Positions 12,134-63,213 of a stretch of 64,000 bases of DNA are shown in pieces (positions within the stretch are counted from its first letter, which is position 1; every line of letters starts with the position of its first letter). Source of the DNA: Mycolicibacter minnesotensis. Its GTDB lineage: Bacteria; Actinomycetota; Actinomycetes; Mycobacteriales; Mycobacteriaceae. Below the pieces are notes generated by a model that searched no databases, was not told where the DNA came from, and saw only the letters and a list, made by a program, of their open reading frames with translations. The stretch covers positions 3,348,001 to 3,412,000 of the forward strand of contig NZ_AP022589.1 in the NCBI RefSeq assembly GCF_010731755.1, read 5' to 3'. The position numbers were made by a program, and so were the translations under genes.

Positions 12134-13454
12134 TCGGCGCGAGGACCCGGTCGTCATCACCGGCCTCGGCGTCGAGGCGCCCGGCGGCATCGACACTGCC
12201 GAGCAGTACTGGTCGCTGCTGGTCGACGGCCGTGAAGCGCTGAGCGCCCTACCTGAGGACCGTGACTGGGCGGTGCGCGACCTCATTGAGGGATCGCACC
12301 GCGAAGGCTTCAAGCCCATCTGCAATGTGGGTGGATTCCTTTCGGGCGCAGCCGAATTCGACCCCGGGTTCTTTGGCATCGCGCCGCGGGAAGCCGTCGC
12401 GATGGACCCGCAGCAGCGGGTCGCGCTGCGCGTGGCCTGGCGCGCCCTGGAAGACGCCGGCATCAATCCCGACGAACTCACCGGCCACAACGTCGGCGTC
12501 TACCTGGGGGCCTCGGTCACCGGCTACGGCCCGGACATGGCGCAATTCAGCGCGCACAGCGGCCACCTGCTACCCGGCACCGCACTGTCGGTGATCTCCG
12601 GCCGGATCGCCTACACCCTGGGCCTGGCCGGCCCGGCGCTCACCGTCGACACCTCGTGTTCGTCGGCGCTGTCTGCCCTGCATCTGGCGGTTCAGGCGAT
12701 CCGGACAGGTGACGCCGACATGGCGCTGGCCGGCGGCGTGTGCGTCATGGGTTCGCCCGGATTCTTCGTCGAGTTCTCCAAGCAGCATGCGCTCTCCGAT
12801 GACGGCCACTGCCGGCCCTACAGTGCCGCCGCCACCGGAACGGTGTGGGCCGAGGGCGCCGGAGTTTTTGTGCTGCAACGCAAATCGTCCGCACTGCGCG
12901 AGCGCCGCCACATCTACGGCGAGATCCTGGCCAGCCGGCTCAACCAGGACGGTCACACTGCCGGGCTGCTGACCCCCAGTGAGCAGGCCCAGCAGCGTCT
13001 GTTCCGGCACACGCTGGCCGACGCCGGCGTGCATCCTGGACAGGTCGGGATGATCGAGGGACACGGAACCGGGACCAAGGTCGGTGATCCCGTCGAACTG
13101 CGCTCGCTGAGCAGCGTTTACGGCGCCGAGAAAACACCCGAAGCCGGCCCACGGCTGGGCTCGGTCAAATCCAATATCGGGCATACCCAGGCCGCAGCTG
13201 GGGCACTCGGGTTGACCAAGGTGCTGCTGGCCGCCGAGTACCAGACCATCCCGCCGACCCTGCATGTCGGCGACGGCCGGCACGACGGCATCGACTGGGA
13301 CGCCAGCGGCATCAGCCTGGCCGAGATCAGCACCGCCTGGCCGGCGAGCGACGGCCGGCGGATCGGGTCGGTATCGGCCTTCGGCATGAGCGGCACCAAC
13401 GCCCACGTCATCGTGTCGGTCGCCGAGAGCGCGGAAGCGGTGCCGGCGTGCTGA
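12126..13454 (+). CDS. mbtC: MbtC, beta-ketoacyl synthase of mycobactin assembly
   Basis: Stand-alone ketosynthase, 442 residues, that with MbtD makes the beta-hydroxyacyl unit of mycobactin. The complete Cys-His-His triad is visible: Cys178 in DTSCSSAL, His313 in EGHGTGT and His353 in NIGHTQAAAG. The ATG at 12126 lies inside the end of mbtT (8-nt overlap), and the stop overlaps the GTG of mbtD, so translation is probably coupled. Length agrees with the remembered M. tuberculosis MbtC (444). Confidence 0.93.
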   Translation: MNDRREDPVVITGLGVEAPGGIDTAEQYWSLLVDGREALSALPEDRDWAVRDLIEGSHREGFKPICNVGGFLSGAAEFDPGFFGIAPREAVAMDPQQRVALRVAWRALEDAGINPDELTGHNVGVYLGASVTGYGPDMAQFSAHSGHLLPGTALSVISGRIAYTLGLAGPALTVDTSCSSALSALHLAVQAIRTGDADMALAGGVCVMGSPGFFVEFSKQHALSDDGHCRPYSAAATGTVWAEGAGVFVLQRKSSALRERRHIYGEILASRLNQDGHTAGLLTPSEQAQQRLFRHTLADAGVHPGQVGMIEGHGTGTKVGDPVELRSLSSVYGAEKTPEAGPRLGSVKSNIGHTQAAAGALGLTKVLLAAEYQTIPPTLHVGDGRHDGIDWDASGISLAEISTAWPASDGRRIGSVSAFGMSGTNAHVIVSVAESAEAVPAC

Positions 13455-16400
13455 GCAACCATCCGGACACGCTGCCCGACGGCCGGATCCCCGTCCTGAT
13501 CTCCGCGCACGCCCGTGACCTCGTGGCCGCCGAGGCGGGTGCCCTGGCGCGCTACCTGCACACGCATCCCGCCGGAGTGCCACAGGTCGCCCAAACCCTG
13601 CGAGCCACCCGTCCGGTCCGCCGCCACCGGGCGATGGTCCGGGCCCGCGACGTCGGCGAACTCATCAGTGGCCTCGACGCGGTCTATCGCGGCGCCGAGC
13701 ATCCCCTGGTGGTGCGGTCGCATCAACCCGAGGCTGCGCGCACCGCGTTCGTGTTCCCCGGGCAAGGCAACCAGTGGCCCGGCATGGGAGCCGACCTGCT
13801 CGCCGTCGCGGCCTACCGCGCCGAGGCGGATCGCTGCCACGACGCCTTCCTGCGCGCGGGTCACGCGTCGCCGCTGAGCTACCTGCGCGGCGCCGACGAG
13901 TCTGACGACACCGATCCGGCGGTTCAGCGAGGTTCGACGCAGGAGAGCCGAAGCTGGGACCGCCGCGATGAACCCGTGGTGGTGCAGGCTGCGCAGTTCA
14001 CCCACGCCGCAGCCCTGGCCGCCACCTGGCGGCACTTCGGCGTGTTGCCCGACATCACCGTCGGCCACAGCCTGGGGGAGGTGGCCGCGGCATACACCGC
14101 CGGAGTGGTGGATCTGGATGCCGCCGTGGCCGTGGTGGCCGCACGGGCGCAACTGACCGACTTGCTCGCCGCCAACGCCCCGGTCCGATTCGGCATGGCG
14201 ATGATCGCCGTGAGCGCCGAGACCGCGAGCGAGATCATCGCGGAAACCCCCGGCTGGCTGGAGCTCTCGGTGGTCAACGGCCCCGAGTCGGTGGTGATAT
14301 CGGGTGAGTGGCCGGCCATACAGCAGGTGCTGAACGCCGCCCAACGACGCGGGGTGTTCGCCCGCGAGCTGCCGGTGCGCTACCCCGCCCACACCAGTGC
14401 CCTGGAACCGCTCCGAGACCAGCTGACCGCGCAGCTTCCCGACGCTCAATTCCACAGCACCCCAGTGGAGTTCCTCGGTTCGGTCTACGGAGCTCCGATC
14501 CCGGCCGGAGCGGCGTTCCGCCAGTACTGGTTCGACAATCTTCGCCGGCAGGTCCGATTCGACCTGGCCGCAGCTGCCGCCGTCGCCCGCGGCGTCACAA
14601 CGTTCATCGAGATGTCCGCCCACCCGACCCTGCTCATCGCGCTGGGCGACTCCGCCGGCACCGCCCTGGTGCTGGGCAGCACCGACCGCGACCGGCCGGC
14701 CGCCGAAGCGCTGGCTGCCAACATCGCCGCTGCCGCGATCGCCGACCCCGGCTATCGCTGGCGGGACTTCACGCCGCCGGATGCTCCCGCGCCGCTGCGG
14801 CACTTCCCCCACGCACCGATGCACACCAACCGGTTGTGGGCCGGCGCGCAGGCATCGGCGCCCCGCCATCGGGCGCCGGTGGTCATGACCGAACGCTGGG
14901 TGCCGGCCGGCGAGCAGGAACCCCGGCCCGCCCGGGTTGCCGTCAATGACTACACCGGGCAATCGGCCGAGCTGACCGCACAGCTGGTGGCTGCCCTGGA
15001 GACCTCACACGTCGCAGTAGTGACGGACCCGGAAGAGGCCGAACTGCTGCTCCTGATCGCCCCGCCCGCAGACACCACGGAGATTGGTGCGGCCGCCGCC
15101 GAGTTCGCCCAGTACGCAGCCGCCCAAACCGCTCTACACCCAGGCCGGAACTGCCGCCGGGTATGGCTGCTGACCCGCGGTGCCGAGCAGCTCGAGGCTG
15201 ATCCACCGGCACGCCCGGGCCCCGCCGCGCTGGCCGCGCTGCACCGCAGCACCGGATTCGACTACCCCGACCAGACCTACGCCCACATCGACCTGCCAAC
15301 GCAGACCACCCACGACGATCTGCGGGCCGCCGTCGGAGCACTTGCGCTCAATGACACCGAGGTCGCGGTCCGTGGCGGGCAGCTGGCAACCCGCCGCTTC
15401 GTCGAGTCCCCGGCTGCCCAGACGGTGCCCGCTGTCCCGCACAGCGTGGTGATCACCGGTGGCACCGGTGCCATCGGCATGGCCTACGCCGCCTACTGCG
15501 CCGAACACGGTGTCCGAGACATCGTGCTACTGAGTCGCAGCGGCGGCACCGACACCATTGCGGCTCAGCTGGCGGTGCTGCGCGCGCGCACCGGAGCGCG
15601 GGTCACCGCGATCCGCTGCGACATCACCGACGATGCCGCGGTTGCAGCGGTGATCGCGCACCATCGGCCCGCACCGGTGGGTCTCCTGGTGCACACGGCG
15701 TCGGCGGAGGCCGTTGCCACGGCGAAAGTCACCGAGACGGCCGTTCGGGATGCGCTCGGCGCCAAAGTGATCGGCTTGGACAACGTGGTTCGCCACTGGC
15801 CGCTGCGCGCCGATGCGCGGGTGCTGGTCTGCTCCTCGGTGCTGGCCCTGTGGGGTGGGTCCGGACATGGTCTCTATGCGGCCGCCAATCGGATGGCCGA
15901 TATCAAGGTGGGACAGCTGCGGGCGCAGGGCCACGACGCCAGCTCCATCCGCTGGGGCCTGTGGCGCAGTGTGGCCGTGGTCAGCGGGGAGGAGAAAGAC
16001 CGGATCGGCCGGACCGGCCTCACACCGATGTCGCCAGAAGCCGCCATCACCGCAGGACTTTCCGCCGCGCCGAACGATCCCGCCATCCTGTCCGCCGATT
16101 TCGACCGGCTGGCAGTGTTCTTCGACAGCCAGGGCGTGCCGTCGCCGTTCGATGCAGCCCTGAGCGCCGACCTGTTCACCCCGACTGGCGCCGGCGCCGA
16201 GCGCCCGGTCGCCGAGGTGGTGGCCGACGAGCTGGTGACCGTGCTTGGCCTGGAAGGCCCCGACGACATCGACATGCACCGGGCCCTGGTCGATCTGGGC
16301 CTGGATTCCCTACTCGCACTGGATCTGCGCAAGCGCCTGGGGCGAGCCACCGGCCTGCGCGTGGCACTCGGCCCGCTGCTGGCCGGAATGACCGGAGCCC

Positions 16401-16474
16401 AGCTGACGGCGGTCTTGCGTGATGACGCAGCACCGTCGCCGGCAACGGAAAGGACTGTATTCACCCATGACTGA
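13448..16474 (+). CDS. mbtD: MbtD, polyketide synthase module (AT-KR-ACP)
   Basis: Partner of MbtC. 1008 residues, GTG start. The acyltransferase has GHSLGE with Ser208. The ketoreductase Rossmann motif VITGGTGAIG lies near residue 668. The carrier has GLDSLLALDLR with Ser954. No ketosynthase is present; MbtC supplies it. Residues 157-173 (VQRGSTQESRSWDRR region) come from a 50-bp palindromic repeat inserted in frame upstream of the AT nucleophile; the neighbouring acidic SDDTDP stretch suggests an exposed loop. The stop overlaps mbtE by 8 nt. Confidence 0.93.
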   Translation: MLSNHPDTLPDGRIPVLISAHARDLVAAEAGALARYLHTHPAGVPQVAQTLRATRPVRRHRAMVRARDVGELISGLDAVYRGAEHPLVVRSHQPEAARTAFVFPGQGNQWPGMGADLLAVAAYRAEADRCHDAFLRAGHASPLSYLRGADESDDTDPAVQRGSTQESRSWDRRDEPVVVQAAQFTHAAALAATWRHFGVLPDITVGHSLGEVAAAYTAGVVDLDAAVAVVAARAQLTDLLAANAPVRFGMAMIAVSAETASEIIAETPGWLELSVVNGPESVVISGEWPAIQQVLNAAQRRGVFARELPVRYPAHTSALEPLRDQLTAQLPDAQFHSTPVEFLGSVYGAPIPAGAAFRQYWFDNLRRQVRFDLAAAAAVARGVTTFIEMSAHPTLLIALGDSAGTALVLGSTDRDRPAAEALAANIAAAAIADPGYRWRDFTPPDAPAPLRHFPHAPMHTNRLWAGAQASAPRHRAPVVMTERWVPAGEQEPRPARVAVNDYTGQSAELTAQLVAALETSHVAVVTDPEEAELLLLIAPPADTTEIGAAAAEFAQYAAAQTALHPGRNCRRVWLLTRGAEQLEADPPARPGPAALAALHRSTGFDYPDQTYAHIDLPTQTTHDDLRAAVGALALNDTEVAVRGGQLATRRFVESPAAQTVPAVPHSVVITGGTGAIGMAYAAYCAEHGVRDIVLLSRSGGTDTIAAQLAVLRARTGARVTAIRCDITDDAAVAAVIAHHRPAPVGLLVHTASAEAVATAKVTETAVRDALGAKVIGLDNVVRHWPLRADARVLVCSSVLALWGGSGHGLYAAANRMADIKVGQLRAQGHDASSIRWGLWRSVAVVSGEEKDRIGRTGLTPMSPEAAITAGLSAAPNDPAILSADFDRLAVFFDSQGVPSPFDAALSADLFTPTGAGAERPVAEVVADELVTVLGLEGPDDIDMHRALVDLGLDSLLALDLRKRLGRATGLRVALGPLLAGMTGAQLTAVLRDDAAPSPATERTVFTHD
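13916..13965. repeat. 50-bp palindromic element inside mbtD
   Basis: Runs from CCGGCGGTTCAG to GGGACCGCCG. The inner ends GGCGGTTCAGC and GCTGGGACCGCC pair along 11 bp with one bulge. It matches the mbtE copy at 16534 at 45 of 50 positions but is read in another frame (as AVQRGSTQESRSWDRR). The length lets the AT domain stay open. Confidence 0.85.
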
Positions 16475-19400
16475 CACCGGCGGTTTAGTGAGGCTCGACG
16501 AAGGAGAGGCGAAGCTGAGATCGCCGAATGACACCGGCGGTTTAGCGAGGCTCGACGAAGGAGAGGCGAAGCTGGGATCGCCGAAGGACACCGGCGGTTT
16601 GGCGACCGACGCGAACGAGCTGCGCTTGGAGCTGATGCGCCGCCGTCTCGCCGAACGCGGGCTGGCCGCCGCACAGCGGGATCCCGAACCGGCCAACGGG
16701 TCTGGACCGCTGACCATGAGCGACGGACAGCGCCGGATGTGGTTCGTCCAAGAGCTCGACCCCGACGGAGCCCTCGCCAACATCTCGGTCTCCTACCGGC
16801 TCACCGGTCCGCTGGACGCCGCCCGGTTGCAGGACGCGCTGGCCGCGGTGGCTGCCCGCCACCCCGCACTACGCACCATCTATACCGTCGACGACGCGGG
16901 TGAACCCCACCCGGCGATCGCCGAGGTCACACCCGGTTTTGCCGCACATGATCTGGCCGAGCTTCCCGATCAGGCGCGGGCGTTGCGGCTGGAAGTGCTC
17001 GCCCAGCGCGAATTCGCCACCCCGTTCCGGCTGGACACCGATGCGCCACTGCGGCTCACCCTGGTCCGGGTCCGTCCAGACGAACACATTCTGTTGCTGG
17101 TGGCGCACCATATCGCCTGGGACGACGACTCCTGGGCAGTCTTCTTCGCCGACCTCACCGCCGCCTACTCCGACCCCGAGAAGTTTGCGGCGCGCCCGAC
17201 GGTGCCGCACGCCGTCGCAGCGGCGGGTGCCAACCACGAAGCCGAGCTGACCTACTGGCGGACCCTGCTGGCCGACCCACCCGACCCGTTGGAGTTGCCC
17301 GGCCCGCACGGCTCGGCGATCCCCAGCACGCTGCGCGCCGGCCTGTGCACCCGCACCCTGCCCGCCGAACTGATGGCCGGCGTCGCCGATCTGGCACGCA
17401 GCAACGGCGCGACGCCCTACATGGTGATCGCCGCGGCGTTGTCCGCCCTGATCTATCGCTACACCGCCACCGATGACTTCCTGATCGCCTCACCGGTGCT
17501 CAACCGCACCGGCGGCACCGAAGGGGCCATCGGCTACTTCGGCAACACCGTCGTGCTGCGCGCGAAGGTCGACGGCGCTGACCGATTCAGTGACCTGGTG
17601 GTCCGCACCCGTGATGCGGCGCTGGGCGCGTTCGGACATCAGGGCATCAACCTGGACCGGGTGGTGCGCGAACTCAACCCGGATCGCCGCCATGGGGGAG
17701 TGGAACGTCTGACCCGCATCAGCTTCGGGTTCCGCTCCACCCACGGCGAGGGCTTTCAGCCTGACGGGATCACCTGCACCCGAGCCGATTACCGCGGAAA
17801 GATCGCCCAACTTCCCCTGGGCATCATGGTCGAGGTCGGCGGCTCCCACGAGGGCGGCGCGTTGATCGAGGCCGAGTACCTGCACGACGTGCTCGATGAG
17901 GCGCTGGTCGACCAGGTGTTGCGTCACCTGGTGCAACTGCTGGCCGCCGCGGTCGCCCAACCCGACGGCCGCGTCGGCGAGCTGGACATGCTCGGCGACC
18001 AAGACCGGACCTGGCTGCAAGCGGTCTCACGCGGACCGGACTACACCCCGTCGCCGGAGGCTCCCGCCACCCTGGGCTCCCTGGTAGCCGATCGCGCAGC
18101 GGCCACCCCCAATGCCATCGCCATCGTCGACGATCACGGCCGCTACAGCTACGCCGACATCAACGCCCGCGCCAACCGGATTGCGCACCACCTCATCGCG
18201 GCCGGCATCGGCACCGAGGACAAGGTCGCGGTGCTGTTCGGCCGCTCAGTGGATCTGGTGGTCACCGCGTTGGGCATCGCCAAGGCCGGCGCCGCCTATG
18301 TACCCGTCGACCCCGAATACCCCGCGGACCGCATCGAATTCATCCTGGGTGATGCCCGGCCGTCGATGGTGCTCCGTGAGCCGCTGACCGCCGATGAGGT
18401 GGCCGACCGGCCTGACACCGACCCCACCGATGCCGACCGGGTGCGCCCGCTGAGCCGGGAGAATCTCGCCTACCTGATCTACACCTCAGGTTCGACCGGT
18501 TTGCCCAAGGGCGTCGAGGTCTCTCATGCCCCGATCACCGAATACCTGCTCTGGTTCGGCGCCGAATACGGAATCGATGACTCCGACGTCTTGCTGCAGG
18601 TCGCCTCTCCGAGCTTCGACGTGTCGATCGGCGAGCTGTTCGGCACACTGGGAAACGGTGCACGACTCGTCATTCCGCGTCCGGACGGGCTGCGTGACAT
18701 CGGCTACCTGACCGATCTTCTGCAGCGCGAGGGCGTCACGGCCATGCATTTCGTGCCGTCGCTGCTGGGCCTGTTCCTGTCGCTGCCCGGCGTCAACCAA
18801 TGGCGGACACTGCGGCGTATCCCGATCGGTGGCGAACCACTGCCCGGCGAACTCGCGGACAAGTTCCACGCCACTTTCGATGCGATGCTGCACAACTTCT
18901 ACGGACCGACCGAGACCGTGGTGAACTCCTGCCGATACAAGGTCGAAGGCACCCAGGGCAATCGGATCGTGCCGATCGGCAGCCCAAACATCAACACCAC
19001 CATGTGGCTGCTTGACGACGCCCTGGCACCGGTACCGGTCGGAGTGATCGGCGAGATCTACATCGGCGGAACGCATGTGGCCCGCGGCTACTTCGACCGT
19101 GCCGGACTGACCGCGGAGCGCTTCGTCGCCGACCCGTGGACGCCCGGCCAGCGGCTCTACCGCACCGGTGACCTCGCCCGCCGCAATGCCGAGGGCGACC
19201 TGGAGTTCATCGGCCGCGCTGACGACCAGGTCAAGGTGCGTGGCTTCCGGATCGAACTCGGGGAGGTGGCGGCCGCCATCTCGGTGGACCCCAGCGTCGG
19301 CCAGTGTGTGGTCGTCGTATCGGACCTGCCCGGCCTGGGCCGCAGCCTGGTCGCTTATCTGACCCCCGCTGGGCCCGGCGCTGCGGAAGACACCGTCGAG

Positions 19401-22400
19401 ATTCCGCGGATCCGCGCCCGAGTTGCCGCTGCGCTGCCGGAATACATGGCCCCCGCCGCCTACGTGGTCGTCGCTGACATCCCAATCACCGCGCACGGCA
19501 AGATCGACCGCGCTGCGCTGCCGGACCCGAAGCCGATCGAGAGCACCCCCTACCGGGAACCGCAGACCGACACCGAACACCTGGTGGCGCAACTGTTCGC
19601 GCAGCTGCTCTCCCGCGACAAAGTGGGCGCCGACGACTCCTTCTTCGACCTCGGTGGGCACTCGCTGCTGGCCACGAAACTGGTCGCGGCGATCCGCTCT
19701 CGATGCGCGGTGGAGATCGGCATCCGCGAGATCTTCGAAGCCAGTACGGTGGCCAGGCTGGCCGCGGCCATCGACCGGGCACCGGCTGCGCAACAGACCG
19801 CCGGGCGACCGGCGCTGGTCGCCGTGCCGCGTTCCGGTGACCTTCCGGTCTCGGCATCGCAGCTGCGCACCTGGTTCGCCTACCGACTGGACCCCGGCGC
19901 TACCGGTGACAACATTCCCCTGACGGCCCGGCTCAGCGGCCCCTGCGACACCGCAGCCCTGATCGCCGCGATCAGCGACGTAGTCGCTCGACACGACAGC
20001 CTGCGCACCACCTTCCGCGAGATCGATGGACTGCCACACCAAGTCATCAATGCTGCGGCGCACGTTCCGGTGACCGAGCTGCGCTGCCCGGAGACCGATC
20101 CGGCGGCTGTGACGGCCTGGACTCAGGCCCGTCTGGACGAGCAGCGTGGCGCAGCGTTCGATCTTGAGCATGATTGGCCGCTTCGCGCCGCGCTGCTGCA
20201 CCTGCCCGGCGACGAGCGGGTGCTGTCCCTGGTGGTGCATCACATCGCCGCCGACCACTGGTCGGTCGAGGTGCTGTTCACCGACCTGTTGATCGCCTAT
20301 CGCTCCCGGGCTGCCGGTTCGGCGCCGGGGTGGGCGCCGCCGGCCTTGCAGTACGCCGACTTCGCGCACTGGCAGGGCGAACTGCTGCGCGACGAATCCG
20401 GATTGATCGACGCGCAACGCCGCTATTGGATGGAGCAACTGGCCGGCCTGGCCGATGACACGGGGCCCCGGCCGGACTTTGCCCGTCCCGCCACCGCCAA
20501 CGGCTCCGGTGACTCGGTTGCCTTCACTGTGCCCCCGCAGGTGCGGGCCGGCTTGGCGGCCCTGGCACGCGAGACCGGTGCCACCGAGTTCATGGTGGTG
20601 CAGGCCGCGGTGGCGGTGTTGATGCATCTGGCCGGTAGCGGAGACGACATCCCGCTGGGGGTGCCGATCGCTGGACGCACCGACGAGGCCCTGGACAATC
20701 TGGTCGGGTTCTTCGTCAACATCGTCGTTCTGCGAAACCGGTTGTCGGGCAACCCGACTCTGCGCGACGTGGTGACGCGGGCACGGGAGGCCGCGCTGGG
20801 TGCCTACGCGCATTCCGACCTGCCCTTCGACCGGCTGGTGGAGGCCCTGAACCCGGTCCGGACCTTGTCGCGCAACCCGCTGTTCCAGGTGGTGGTCCAC
20901 GTGCGCGAAGCGGCCGATGTCACCCACGTCATCGACACCGGGTCAGACGGCGACCTGGTCTTCCGCACCGTGATGCCGACGTTCGACATTGCCCACGCCG
21001 ACTTGTCGGTGAACCTTTTCACCGCGGCCGGTGACAGCGCCGAGGGCGCCGGCTATGACGGGCATCTGATCTATCGGACCGATCTCTACGAGCGCGCCAC
21101 CGTGGCGCGACTGGCCGATTGGCTGGGCCGGGTGCTGGCGACGATGGCCGGTGACCCGGGCCGGGCACTGCGCGACATCAGCCTGGTCGATGACGCGCAA
21201 CGCGAACAGATCCTGGACCAGTGGAGCCGCGGCGCCGAGATGCCGGCGGATGACCCGCGCACCATCGCCGACGTCCTTGCCGCCAGCCGGGACTTCGACG
21301 GCGTTGCCGTGCGCTGTGCTGGAGCCGAACTCACCTACCCGCAGCTGCATCAGCGTTCCGACCGGCTTGCCGAACTGCTGATCGCTGCCGGGGTCGAACC
21401 CGGAACCCTGGTGGGTCTGTCGGTCCAACGCGACCTCGATCTGCCGGTGGCGTTGGTCGGCATCATGAAGGCCGGTGCCGGTTACTTCCCCTTAGACCCG
21501 ACCTACCCGCGCCAGCGTCTCGAGTTCATGATCGACGATGTCGAGCCGAAGGTGATCCTGGTCAGCGGTACCACCCGGGATGCGATACCCGCGCCCGACG
21601 GTGTCACGCGGTTGTGCCTGGACGACACGGATGTGCAGGTCGAGCTGGCGGAACAGGCTGTCGGAGTGGTGCTTCCGGTGCCCAACCCGGATGACCCGAT
21701 GTATCTGGTGTTCACCTCCGGATCCACCGGCGTGCCCAAGGGTGTGCTGGGAACCCATCGCTCGATGAGTGCCCGTCTGAACTGGCAGATCGCCCACTAT
21801 CCGGTGTCCGGAGACGACATCCGGCTGGCCCAATCGTCGATGACGTTCCTCGAAGGCGGCATGGAGATGCTGGCCGGGCTGGCTGCTGGGGCAACGCTGA
21901 TTCTGGCCGACGACAACGAGTTCCGCGATCCTGAAGCCCTCGCCCGGCTGATCGTGGGCGAGCGGGTGGCTCAGGTGACCGCGGTGGCCAGCCTGATCTC
22001 GGTGCTGGCCGATGAACCCGACACCCTGCGTGGCCTGCGCCGGCTGGTGTGCAGCGGGGAGCCGGTCTCCGCCGACCTGCTGGCCCGATTGGGCACGTCG
22101 CTAGATCCGAATGCTCAGCTGCTCAACAACTTCGGAGCCACCGAGACCTCGGGCGCTGCGGTGCGCGGTGAACTGGAGCCGCCCACCCCGAAACTGGGTC
22201 GGCCCACCCCCGGGTCTGCGGCCTATGTGCTCGACGACGCGCTGCAGCCGGTGCCGCCCGGCGTGGTGGGCGAGGTGTACTACGCCGGCCCGCAGATCGT
22301 CCGCGGTTACTGGAAGCGACCGGGACTGACCTCGACCCGTTTCGTGGCCAACCCCTTCTCCACCTCCGACGGTGACCGGCTCTACCGCAGCGGGGACCGG

Positions 22401-23105
22401 GCCCGCTGGAGTGTCGACGGCGTCCTGGAGTTCGTCGGCCGTACCGACCACCAGGTCAAGGTGCGGGGTTTCCGGGTGGAACTGGCAGAGGTGGAGGCTG
22501 CACTGCGCGCCGCGCCCGGAGTGGCGTCAGCAGCTGCCCGGACGTGGGAGCAGCGCGGTGTCACCACACTGGCCGGTTACCTGGTGTCCGCAGGCCCGGT
22601 CACCGACGCGGCGGCCTTCATCGCCGCGGTACGCGCTGAGGTGGCCGCGGTGCTGCCCGGCTACATGGTTCCGGCGTCGCTGACGGTGTTGGAAGCCTTG
22701 CCGCTCACCGACTCCGGCAAGCTGAACCGGCCGGCGCTGCCGCAGCCGGCGGTGGCTACCCGCGGGGAGTCGGACCCTGCGGTCACCCCCACCGAGCAGG
22801 CCCTCGTGGGTATCTGCGCCGAACTGCTGGGTCTTGCGGCGATCGGTCGCAGCGACGGCTTCTTCGAACTCGGCGGGGACAGCATCTTGTCGGTGCAGCT
22901 GGCTGCGCGGGCTCGAGCGGCGGGGCTGGACGTGGACCCGCGGATGATCTTCGAGCATCCCACGTTTGCCGAACTGGCTGCCGCCGTCGACGCCGCCGGC
23001 AGCACTCCGCAAGCCGCGGACACGGCTTTTGAGCCGATGAGCGTCTCGGGTCTGAGCGGCGATGCGCTGGCCGGTCTGACCGCGGCGTGGGGTGATTCGC
23101 CGTGA
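16467..23105 (+). CDS. mbtE: MbtE, dimodular NRPS (C-A-PCP-C-A-PCP)
   Basis: Lysine-incorporating synthetase of mycobactin. 2212 residues from the ATG at 16467 (MTDTGG), which overlaps mbtD by 8 nt. Module 1: condensation motif HHIAWDD from residue 214, adenylation TSGSTGLPKG from 673 with SFDVS at A4, carrier Ser1066. Module 2: condensation HHIAADHW from 1258, adenylation TSGSTGVPKG from 1750, carrier Ser2139. The second A4 core reads TFLEGG near 1793-1798, so the Asp that normally holds the substrate amino group is missing. M. tuberculosis MbtE is remembered as about 1682 residues, roughly one adenylation domain shorter. Residues 3-40 come from two tandem palindromic repeat units. Confidence 0.92.
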   Translation: MTDTGGLVRLDEGEAKLRSPNDTGGLARLDEGEAKLGSPKDTGGLATDANELRLELMRRRLAERGLAAAQRDPEPANGSGPLTMSDGQRRMWFVQELDPDGALANISVSYRLTGPLDAARLQDALAAVAARHPALRTIYTVDDAGEPHPAIAEVTPGFAAHDLAELPDQARALRLEVLAQREFATPFRLDTDAPLRLTLVRVRPDEHILLLVAHHIAWDDDSWAVFFADLTAAYSDPEKFAARPTVPHAVAAAGANHEAELTYWRTLLADPPDPLELPGPHGSAIPSTLRAGLCTRTLPAELMAGVADLARSNGATPYMVIAAALSALIYRYTATDDFLIASPVLNRTGGTEGAIGYFGNTVVLRAKVDGADRFSDLVVRTRDAALGAFGHQGINLDRVVRELNPDRRHGGVERLTRISFGFRSTHGEGFQPDGITCTRADYRGKIAQLPLGIMVEVGGSHEGGALIEAEYLHDVLDEALVDQVLRHLVQLLAAAVAQPDGRVGELDMLGDQDRTWLQAVSRGPDYTPSPEAPATLGSLVADRAAATPNAIAIVDDHGRYSYADINARANRIAHHLIAAGIGTEDKVAVLFGRSVDLVVTALGIAKAGAAYVPVDPEYPADRIEFILGDARPSMVLREPLTADEVADRPDTDPTDADRVRPLSRENLAYLIYTSGSTGLPKGVEVSHAPITEYLLWFGAEYGIDDSDVLLQVASPSFDVSIGELFGTLGNGARLVIPRPDGLRDIGYLTDLLQREGVTAMHFVPSLLGLFLSLPGVNQWRTLRRIPIGGEPLPGELADKFHATFDAMLHNFYGPTETVVNSCRYKVEGTQGNRIVPIGSPNINTTMWLLDDALAPVPVGVIGEIYIGGTHVARGYFDRAGLTAERFVADPWTPGQRLYRTGDLARRNAEGDLEFIGRADDQVKVRGFRIELGEVAAAISVDPSVGQCVVVVSDLPGLGRSLVAYLTPAGPGAAEDTVEIPRIRARVAAALPEYMAPAAYVVVADIPITAHGKIDRAALPDPKPIESTPYREPQTDTEHLVAQLFAQLLSRDKVGADDSFFDLGGHSLLATKLVAAIRSRCAVEIGIREIFEASTVARLAAAIDRAPAAQQTAGRPALVAVPRSGDLPVSASQLRTWFAYRLDPGATGDNIPLTARLSGPCDTAALIAAISDVVARHDSLRTTFREIDGLPHQVINAAAHVPVTELRCPETDPAAVTAWTQARLDEQRGAAFDLEHDWPLRAALLHLPGDERVLSLVVHHIAADHWSVEVLFTDLLIAYRSRAAGSAPGWAPPALQYADFAHWQGELLRDESGLIDAQRRYWMEQLAGLADDTGPRPDFARPATANGSGDSVAFTVPPQVRAGLAALARETGATEFMVVQAAVAVLMHLAGSGDDIPLGVPIAGRTDEALDNLVGFFVNIVVLRNRLSGNPTLRDVVTRAREAALGAYAHSDLPFDRLVEALNPVRTLSRNPLFQVVVHVREAADVTHVIDTGSDGDLVFRTVMPTFDIAHADLSVNLFTAAGDSAEGAGYDGHLIYRTDLYERATVARLADWLGRVLATMAGDPGRALRDISLVDDAQREQILDQWSRGAEMPADDPRTIADVLAASRDFDGVAVRCAGAELTYPQLHQRSDRLAELLIAAGVEPGTLVGLSVQRDLDLPVALVGIMKAGAGYFPLDPTYPRQRLEFMIDDVEPKVILVSGTTRDAIPAPDGVTRLCLDDTDVQVELAEQAVGVVLPVPNPDDPMYLVFTSGSTGVPKGVLGTHRSMSARLNWQIAHYPVSGDDIRLAQSSMTFLEGGMEMLAGLAAGATLILADDNEFRDPEALARLIVGERVAQVTAVASLISVLADEPDTLRGLRRLVCSGEPVSADLLARLGTSLDPNAQLLNNFGATETSGAAVRGELEPPTPKLGRPTPGSAAYVLDDALQPVPPGVVGEVYYAGPQIVRGYWKRPGLTSTRFVANPFSTSDGDRLYRSGDRARWSVDGVLEFVGRTDHQVKVRGFRVELAEVEAALRAAPGVASAAARTWEQRGVTTLAGYLVSAGPVTDAAAFIAAVRAEVAAVLPGYMVPASLTVLEALPLTDSGKLNRPALPQPAVATRGESDPAVTPTEQALVGICAELLGLAAIGRSDGFFELGGDSILSVQLAARARAAGLDVDPRMIFEHPTFAELAAAVDAAGSTPQAADTAFEPMSVSGLSGDALAGLTAAWGDSP
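16473..16606. repeat. 57-bp tandem palindromic repeat at the start of mbtE
   Basis: Two complete units, 16473-16529 and 16530-16586, then a partial third (to about 16606). The two units differ at a few positions only. Each encodes 19 residues of the type DTGGLxRLDEGEAKLxSPx. The core (16477-16526 and 16534-16583) is the same palindromic element as at 13916. The paired ends are kept with G-T wobbles. Confidence 0.9.
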
Positions 23106-63122: not shown

Positions 63123-63198
63123 TCCCCTGTAGCTCAATTGGCAGAGCATTCGGCTGTTAACCGGAGGGTTGGTGGTTCGAGTCCACCCGGGGGAGCCA
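63123..63198 (+). tRNA. asnT: tRNA-Asn (GTT)
   Basis: Complete cloverleaf. Acceptor TCCCCTG pairs with CGGGGGA; D arm GCTC-AATTGGCA-GAGC; anticodon loop CTGTTAA with GTT at 63156-63158; T arm GGTGG-TTCGAGT-CCACC. Discriminator G at 63195 and an encoded CCA at 63196-63198. Confidence 0.97.
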
Positions 63199-63213
63199 CG
63201 TTTGAGACCGGCG

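Follow-up and report, generated by a model that had tools for sequence, protein, structure and literature searches.

A probable non-autonomous palindromic element of Mycolicibacter that enters genes and gene junctions by whole 57-bp units

Mycobacterial interspersed repetitive units (MIRUs), which Supply et al. are said to have described in 1997, are roughly 50–100 bp long, and we know of no strong palindromes in them. According to a 2025 review they are apparently mobile, are located at start codons and are translationally coupled (PMC12548453; this and the other sources cited by PMC number are represented by excerpts). Rickettsia palindromic elements (RPEs) are dispersed palindromes, many of them in frame within unrelated genes (PMC10969869, PMC3733652), and are about 150 bp long with a conserved peptide (PMC10969869). 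Here we describe a 57-bp palindromic element found in two adjacent genes, mbtD and mbtE, of a 64,000-nucleotide stretch of the Mycolicibacter minnesotensis genome (the window; positions 3,348,001 to 3,412,000 of contig NZ_AP022589.1). By description, RPEs seem to be the closest known system in behaviour, and MIRUs appear closest in lineage and junction use. The likeness to RPEs drawn in the original prediction holds for behaviour, both being dispersed palindromes inserted in frame in unrelated genes, and fails for the size of about 150 bp and the conserved peptide, since the Mycolicibacter element has 57 bp and its copies in four annotated domains are read in three frames. Tandem arrays and the gain of one unit per insertion are further differences from the RPE description. 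Our preferred reading, with a probability of about 0.8, is a palindromic DNA element that is dispersed in Mycolicibacter and non-autonomous and that inserts in genes and gene junctions by whole units. It rests on the following observations: the units are dispersed and their hairpin covaries, empty sites are clean, gains are of unit length, arrays differ in size, and presence among species is patchy.

The mbtD-like polyketide synthase gene is an open reading frame (ORF) at 13448..16474 of the forward strand (start codon that of the mechanical ORF) with Acyl_transf_1 (amino acids 101-428), KR and PP-binding domains. It carries one unit in the acyltransferase domain at 13915..13971 (forward strand; amino acids 156-174; covariance-model match at contig positions 3361915-3361971), read as PAVQRGSTQESRSWDRRD. 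The mbtE-like nonribosomal peptide synthetase gene, identified by ORF and domains at 16467..23105 of the same strand, has a start codon overlapping the mbtD stop (ATGACTGA). Its N terminus holds two forward units, at 16476..16532 and 16533..16589, both seen as covariance-model matches (3364476-3364532 and 3364533-3364589) and in translation, followed on the forward strand by a partial third copy at 16590..16605 (ACCGGCGGTTTGGCGA), read from the sequence; other arrays also end in partial copies. One copy in mbtD and two at the start of mbtE had been predicted as 50-bp sequences, and all three are present; the unit length proved to be 57 bp, with the partial third mbtE copy in addition. Counted by eye, 45 of 50 bases are identical between the mbtD copy (13916-13965) and the second mbtE copy (16534-16583), as predicted; the two are nevertheless read as different peptides, PAVQRGSTQESRSWDRRD in MbtD and GGLARLDEGEAKLGSP or the like in the MbtE copies. 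A degenerate 48-base pattern, allowing up to three mismatches, occurs at exactly three places in the window and in none of 100 shuffles, which rules out chance similarity of the three copies.

In a single copy of the element, about 48 nt form a hairpin whose tip is rich in purines, and a short spacer resembling GCATGAACC makes up the rest. The consensus unit folds into a single hairpin of -27 kcal/mol (z -3.26; two of 200 shuffles fold equally well). The pairing of the element ends, also part of the original prediction, is borne out by an 18-pair structure in which 93.9% of 558 cells are paired over 31 copies. Eight of the 18 pairs are changed on both sides, a level reached by none of 500 shuffles on any of five measures, and slid pairings of the same alignment score below the true register; the pair at columns 18-34 is unpaired in 16 of the 31 copies. 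This 31-unit alignment was obtained from one of 41 units by removing the aberrant L048 and nine short-form units, which have GGTTAGC or GGCTAGC at the left arm and thereby a shifted outer stem. Folded jointly, all 41 units give two-sided changes at eight of 15 pairs. Mean column identity across family units is 89%. The tip, CTC-GA-C-GNA-G-GA-GAG, resembles what we take to be tandem G-A pairs below a GNA triloop, and contains an AGGAG stretch. A known RNA family was ruled out for the window interval 13800-16700, where no Rfam family reaches its gathering score and the two matches at E≤1 both lie off the units.

The original prediction asked for copies elsewhere in the genome, and these are numerous. 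BLAST of one unit against its own genome (4,224,047 bases, one contig) yields 72 hits clustering into 40 loci; nhmmer likewise places 72 units, each scoring over 30 bits, at 40 loci. The covariance model built from the 31 units finds at least 100 matches at E≤1, at least 94 of them at E≤1e-5, these being lower bounds from 150 scored of 4073 candidates, and adds 12 further loci. Adjacent units of tandem arrays are spaced by 57 bases in 95 of 122 cases, by 56 in 21, by 58 in five and by 55 in one (own genome and named loci; orthologous arrays were tallied separately). Arrays expand locally, because adjacent units of one array often have private variants in common. The last copy of four arrays (L042, L055, L058, and L079) breaks off close to the tip of the hairpin (..GAGGCTCGACG), as though copying had halted in the loop. 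Phage or plasmid carriage was ruled out by a search with a three-unit array, which has no match in 50,697 phage and 72,556 plasmid records (E 1e-5).

Occupied and empty alleles of the same sites are found among relatives. The mbtD-mbtE stretch was searched in 24 of them, of which 22 match at E≤1e-30, 20 across mbtD; the alignments comprise 23 rows for mbtD (own, 20 relatives, and the named loci L099 and L140) and 26 for mbtE (own, 22 relatives, L099, L140, and L157; L157 and L241 have an identical mbtE stretch and may be one species). Seventeen of the 23 mbtD rows, each of 66 columns, have an empty site. The site is occupied in the own genome (+66, or 57+9), L242 (+57, one unit) and L246 (+114, two units), and has remnants in L245 (+6) and L241 (+18), both short, and in L244 (+36, one unit with an internal deletion). 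The mbtE site is empty in 17 of 26 rows and holds one to three units in the other nine; its most frequent empty start is ATGACTGACACCGTCGA, as against ATGACTGACACCGGCGG...TGACACCGTCGA in the occupied L256. These empty rows answer in the negative whether the residues represent ancient protein sequence. All row lengths, 23 of 23 for mbtD and 26 of 26 for mbtE, are divisible by three, and coding frames survive insertion because the net gain is one unit, or 19 codons. The biotin carboxylase site is occupied in five of 25 genomes (own, G190, G073 with three further bases, G392, and G423 with two units). For hisF, 25 genomes comprise ten occupied sites, one remnant (G078, by eye) and 14 empty sites, a count that leaves out repeat genomes (L325, L326, and L295-L300) and four loci that are all occupied (L106, L149, L151, and L156). 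Some pairs scored as empty (e.g., L079, L152, and L077) resemble leftovers of contracted arrays rather than clean sites. Two further sites of the window, both given on the forward strand, are empty here and occupied elsewhere: one within mbtE at 22002..22025, where L127 holds +57 and L114 +60 (one unit each), and one with target TGAGACCGGCG at 63189..63213, where Mycolicibacter heraklionensis strain Davo (L073) holds exactly one 57-bp unit.

The 40 loci of the own genome differ in gene context, gene calls being ORFs ranked by codon score plus domain matches where searched. At four loci the copy lies within an annotated domain, and these use three reading frames, one antisense: the mbtD acyltransferase (frame +1), biotin carboxylase (amino acids 370-389, frame 0), a flavin monooxygenase-like protein (amino acids 127-146, frame 0), and a GT87/PRK13375 mannosyltransferase (amino acids 175-195, opposite strand). 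Four loci are at N termini, namely those of mbtE, hisF, a peptidase C26 and an ABC/FhuF protein (frame +1). Eight are at 3' ends, where the predicted upstream gene takes its TAG stop from the first bases of the element, which is in each case of the short form (L031, the second copy L039:5911-5966, the first copy L042:3498-3610, L044, L049, L055, L057, and L067); the ninth short-form locus, L035, supplies no upstream stop. For six loci (L036, L046, L058, L059, L062, and L066) the open frame is not independently supported, and the other 18 are intergenic or not resolved to a gene. The MshC copy (L066) was dropped as an in-gene insertion, as its amino acids 63-82 are upstream of the domain starting at amino acid 89, and the AtuA (L059) and VWA (L058) copies, although in open frames, fall outside the domain. 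PDB contains no match to the peptide consensus of the element. Several frames including antisense, compensatory changes and empty orthologues together support conservation at the DNA or RNA rather than the protein level. The notion of ancient protein repeats kept as protein, to which recurrence of the peptide GGSARLDEGEAKLGPP across many copies might point, has practically no chance of being right and is refuted by the mixed frames, one of them antisense, the orthologues with empty sites and the compensatory base changes.

Under the reading of a non-autonomous palindromic element, a unit would enter a gene or gene junction with a net gain of one unit, the host gene dictating its reading frame, and the resulting tandem array would then expand and contract and may decay to in-frame remnants. 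The unit would be copied into a target having few bases in common with its junction (approximately TGANCCCGGCGG), possibly by template switching or by annealing of single-stranded hairpin DNA at the replication fork; TGANCCCGG-like sites would be the expected landing places of such hairpin-dependent copying, and persistence of the element would not require a benefit to the host. Target duplications, judged by eye, are about 5 bases in biotin carboxylase, 8 in mbtE, about 10 in mbtD and 11 at the 63-kb site. The net gain of one unit (or several) and the variable short duplication suggest homology-guided copying from a 57-periodic template in register with a target that matches it in part. Non-consensus bases common to left and right junctions number 187 in 113 arrays (those remaining after merging of detected ortholog groups), against a permuted mean of 151.2 (0 of 5000 permutations as high), and 108 against 86.4 in the 67 single-unit arrays (6 of 5000). 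We gave up the idea that the target generally supplies the outer right hairpin arm: L048, its clearest case, looked like a truncated neighbouring unit when aligned with its orthologues. By eye, L070 still fits such a copied arm.

Several points weigh against this reading. Twenty-seven of the 122 unit spacings differ from 57, the duplication length appears to vary, with little duplication at some junctions, and the excess of common junction bases over permuted pairs is modest. We observed no transposition event, nor is any enzyme linked to the element. The presence and absence of copies could partly reflect an old insertion followed by precise loss between flanking repeats. There is also no sign that the element is built for coding: a unit has a mean of 4.0 open frames of six against 4.18 in shuffles (34 units, the first full-length one per locus), and openness, being no higher than in shuffles, stems from base composition.

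A serious rival is a non-autonomous insertion element of the classical type, mobilised in trans by a host-encoded transposase, with a duplication of about 9–10 bp whose variation would result from later mutation or conversion. We hold this to be possible, though unlikely. By eye, duplications of 9–10 bases are seen in mbtD (GATCCNGTGG) and hisF (AGCACAGCG), and insertions of single units are clean, as such a transposase would produce; in biotin carboxylase, however, the duplication has only about 5 bases with element-like sequence beyond. The outer stem overlaps the duplicated target, again by eye, unlike usual terminal inverted repeats. Miniature inverted-repeat transposable elements have a fixed-length duplication outside their terminal inverted repeats; the duplication here seems variable and overlaps the stem. 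The Y1 transposase domain PF01797 has no match in the own genome (5 of 14 controls positive; other transposase families were not searched), nor has the reverse-transcriptase domain PF00078 (3 of 14 controls positive; other enzyme families were not searched).

Gain and loss were followed on an mbtD gene tree of 21 genomes (midpoint root, for drawing only), which splits into groups of 10 and 11. Copies or remnants in mbtD occur in six of the ten genomes of the first group and in none of the second. Copies in mbtE occur in five of the ten, plus G411 in the second group, and copies in biotin carboxylase in three genomes of the first group and two of the second. In hisF, nine of the ten have copies and there is a remnant in the first group, and G161 is occupied in the second. 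The six hisF units of G161 match units of the other tree group at 56–57 of 57 bases. By contrast, the 400-base flanks of G161 are closer to those of its empty sister G086 (96.5% and 98.8% identity) than to those of the donor-like G190 (82.5% and 90.2%). The mbtE unit of G411 matches that of G069 at 55 of 57 bases, and two others at 53 and 54; its flanks are 77% identical to G069 and 90% and 89% identical to the empty sister G352. As the unit is largely conserved family-wide, the evidential weight for transfer rests on the locus-specific spacer. On these sequence comparisons, transfer between species into the same site is the simpler reading of the hisF and mbtE patterns than ancient presence with many precise losses. 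A more far-reaching proposal, which we regard as speculative and rather doubtful, is that of a minimal 57-bp homing element without an enzyme of its own, whose locus-specific units would cross species boundaries and settle at the same site between native flanks, with short homology to the hairpin junction as the whole targeting rule.

The element could also be a MIRU, the known kind that inserts at operon start/stop overlaps and that goes unmentioned in the original prediction. Both form tandem direct repeats of a similar size range, and the mbtE copy lies where mbtD and mbtE overlap (ATGACTGA), an ATG/TGA overlap of the type that MIRUs are said to use (PMC12548453). This start-codon or junction placement is seen at mbtE and is not general across the 40 loci. 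Unlike MIRUs, the Mycolicibacter element is also located deep in coding sequence (four of 40 loci within annotated domains), at gene 3' ends (eight of 40) and on the opposite strand, and the strong covarying hairpin is its defining feature. A pattern of M. tuberculosis MIRU typing primers, used as query, gave no match in 396 genomes. Identity with MIRUs is improbable in our judgement.

Even less probable is a functional RNA or termination hairpin selected at gene ends and operon junctions, with the coding copies as by-products. A covarying hairpin, the AGGAG stretch in its tip and the TAG stop supplied at eight of 40 loci would all fit such an RNA. This is opposed by the patchy presence at mbtD, mbtE, hisF and biotin carboxylase among relatives, by copies antisense to genes, and by the lack of an Rfam family at gathering score in the interval searched.

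Other repeats offer partial parallels. Cod-2 of Corynebacterium diphtheriae, with 32-nt repeats in various coding sequences giving different peptides by frame (PMC2267715), sets a precedent for the use of more than one frame by a repeat, at 32 nt against 57 bp. The structured M. tuberculosis families Myt-1 (72 nt, 75 copies) and Myt-8 (92 nt, 33 copies), which the excerpt does not assign to genes or spacers (PMC2267715), could be relatives, judged from description alone. VNTR4155, a variable-number tandem repeat (VNTR) in M. tuberculosis leuA, is a 57-bp in-frame tandem repeat tolerated by the enzyme (PMC2704214). It resembles the Mycolicibacter element in unit length and in its tandem, in-frame position in an enzyme gene, while its 19-residue peptide (vtiaspaqpgeagrhasdp) is unlike any open frame of the element, in a comparison by eye of peptides only. 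In M. tuberculosis Erdman, another 57-bp tandem element is located at the dop promoter (PMC12817950). Repetitive extragenic palindromic (REP) sequences have a GTAG or CGTC tag at one end, and DNA-repair genes with REPs include UvrD/REP helicase (PMC3733652). They are likewise short palindromes, in places inside genes; REPs, however, have the Y1 transposase TnpA-REP (RAYT, REP-associated tyrosine transposase), whose domain PF01797 is without match in the Mycolicibacter genome. None of the titles and abstract openings listed in searches of openly licensed PMC papers describes the 57-bp family.

With the covariance model under strict filters, nine of 148 genomes match (own included), all in the genus of the window and thus in one of 36 genera, and a scan of the same genus gives 50 of 396 genomes, again with the own one. 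A scan of named genomes gave at least 80 matches, and those listed are from Mycolicibacter species and two Mycobacterium sp. Among 29 matching genomes that were searched again, chiefly those with few or weak matches, 11, all mycobacterial, have a relative of the element in frame at one site of UvrD1 (between VREL and VPPAELCVVGDADQ), of 57 bp in L193 and 78 bp in L194, L196, L199, L200, L205, L206, L207, L215, L217, and L219; the solved UvrD1 chain 9dci is without the insert. Relatives of the element with a longer tip are mainly 66 bp in G235, 78–80 bp in many genomes and mainly 87 bp in G446. G446 and G235 (L233-L240) have many-copy versions of their own (mainly 87 and 66 bp, respectively), some in open frames through flanking coding sequence. 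A 79–80-bp copy common to eight genomes (L204, L208, L210-L214, and L216) forms the 3' terminus of a small gene (..MRGYWNMDGMQFGQAVQ*) and includes its stop codon.

In-frame insertion of small palindromes into working genes is best known from Rickettsia, and the same behaviour is now seen in one lineage of GC-rich actinobacteria. The copies number in the dozens, relatives have both empty and occupied alleles, and four or more gene sites allow gain and loss to be traced on a tree. How such elements arrive, and whether they donate new protein sequence, thus becomes directly testable. The element may also bear on the origin of some mycobacterial VNTRs, which are widely used in strain typing.

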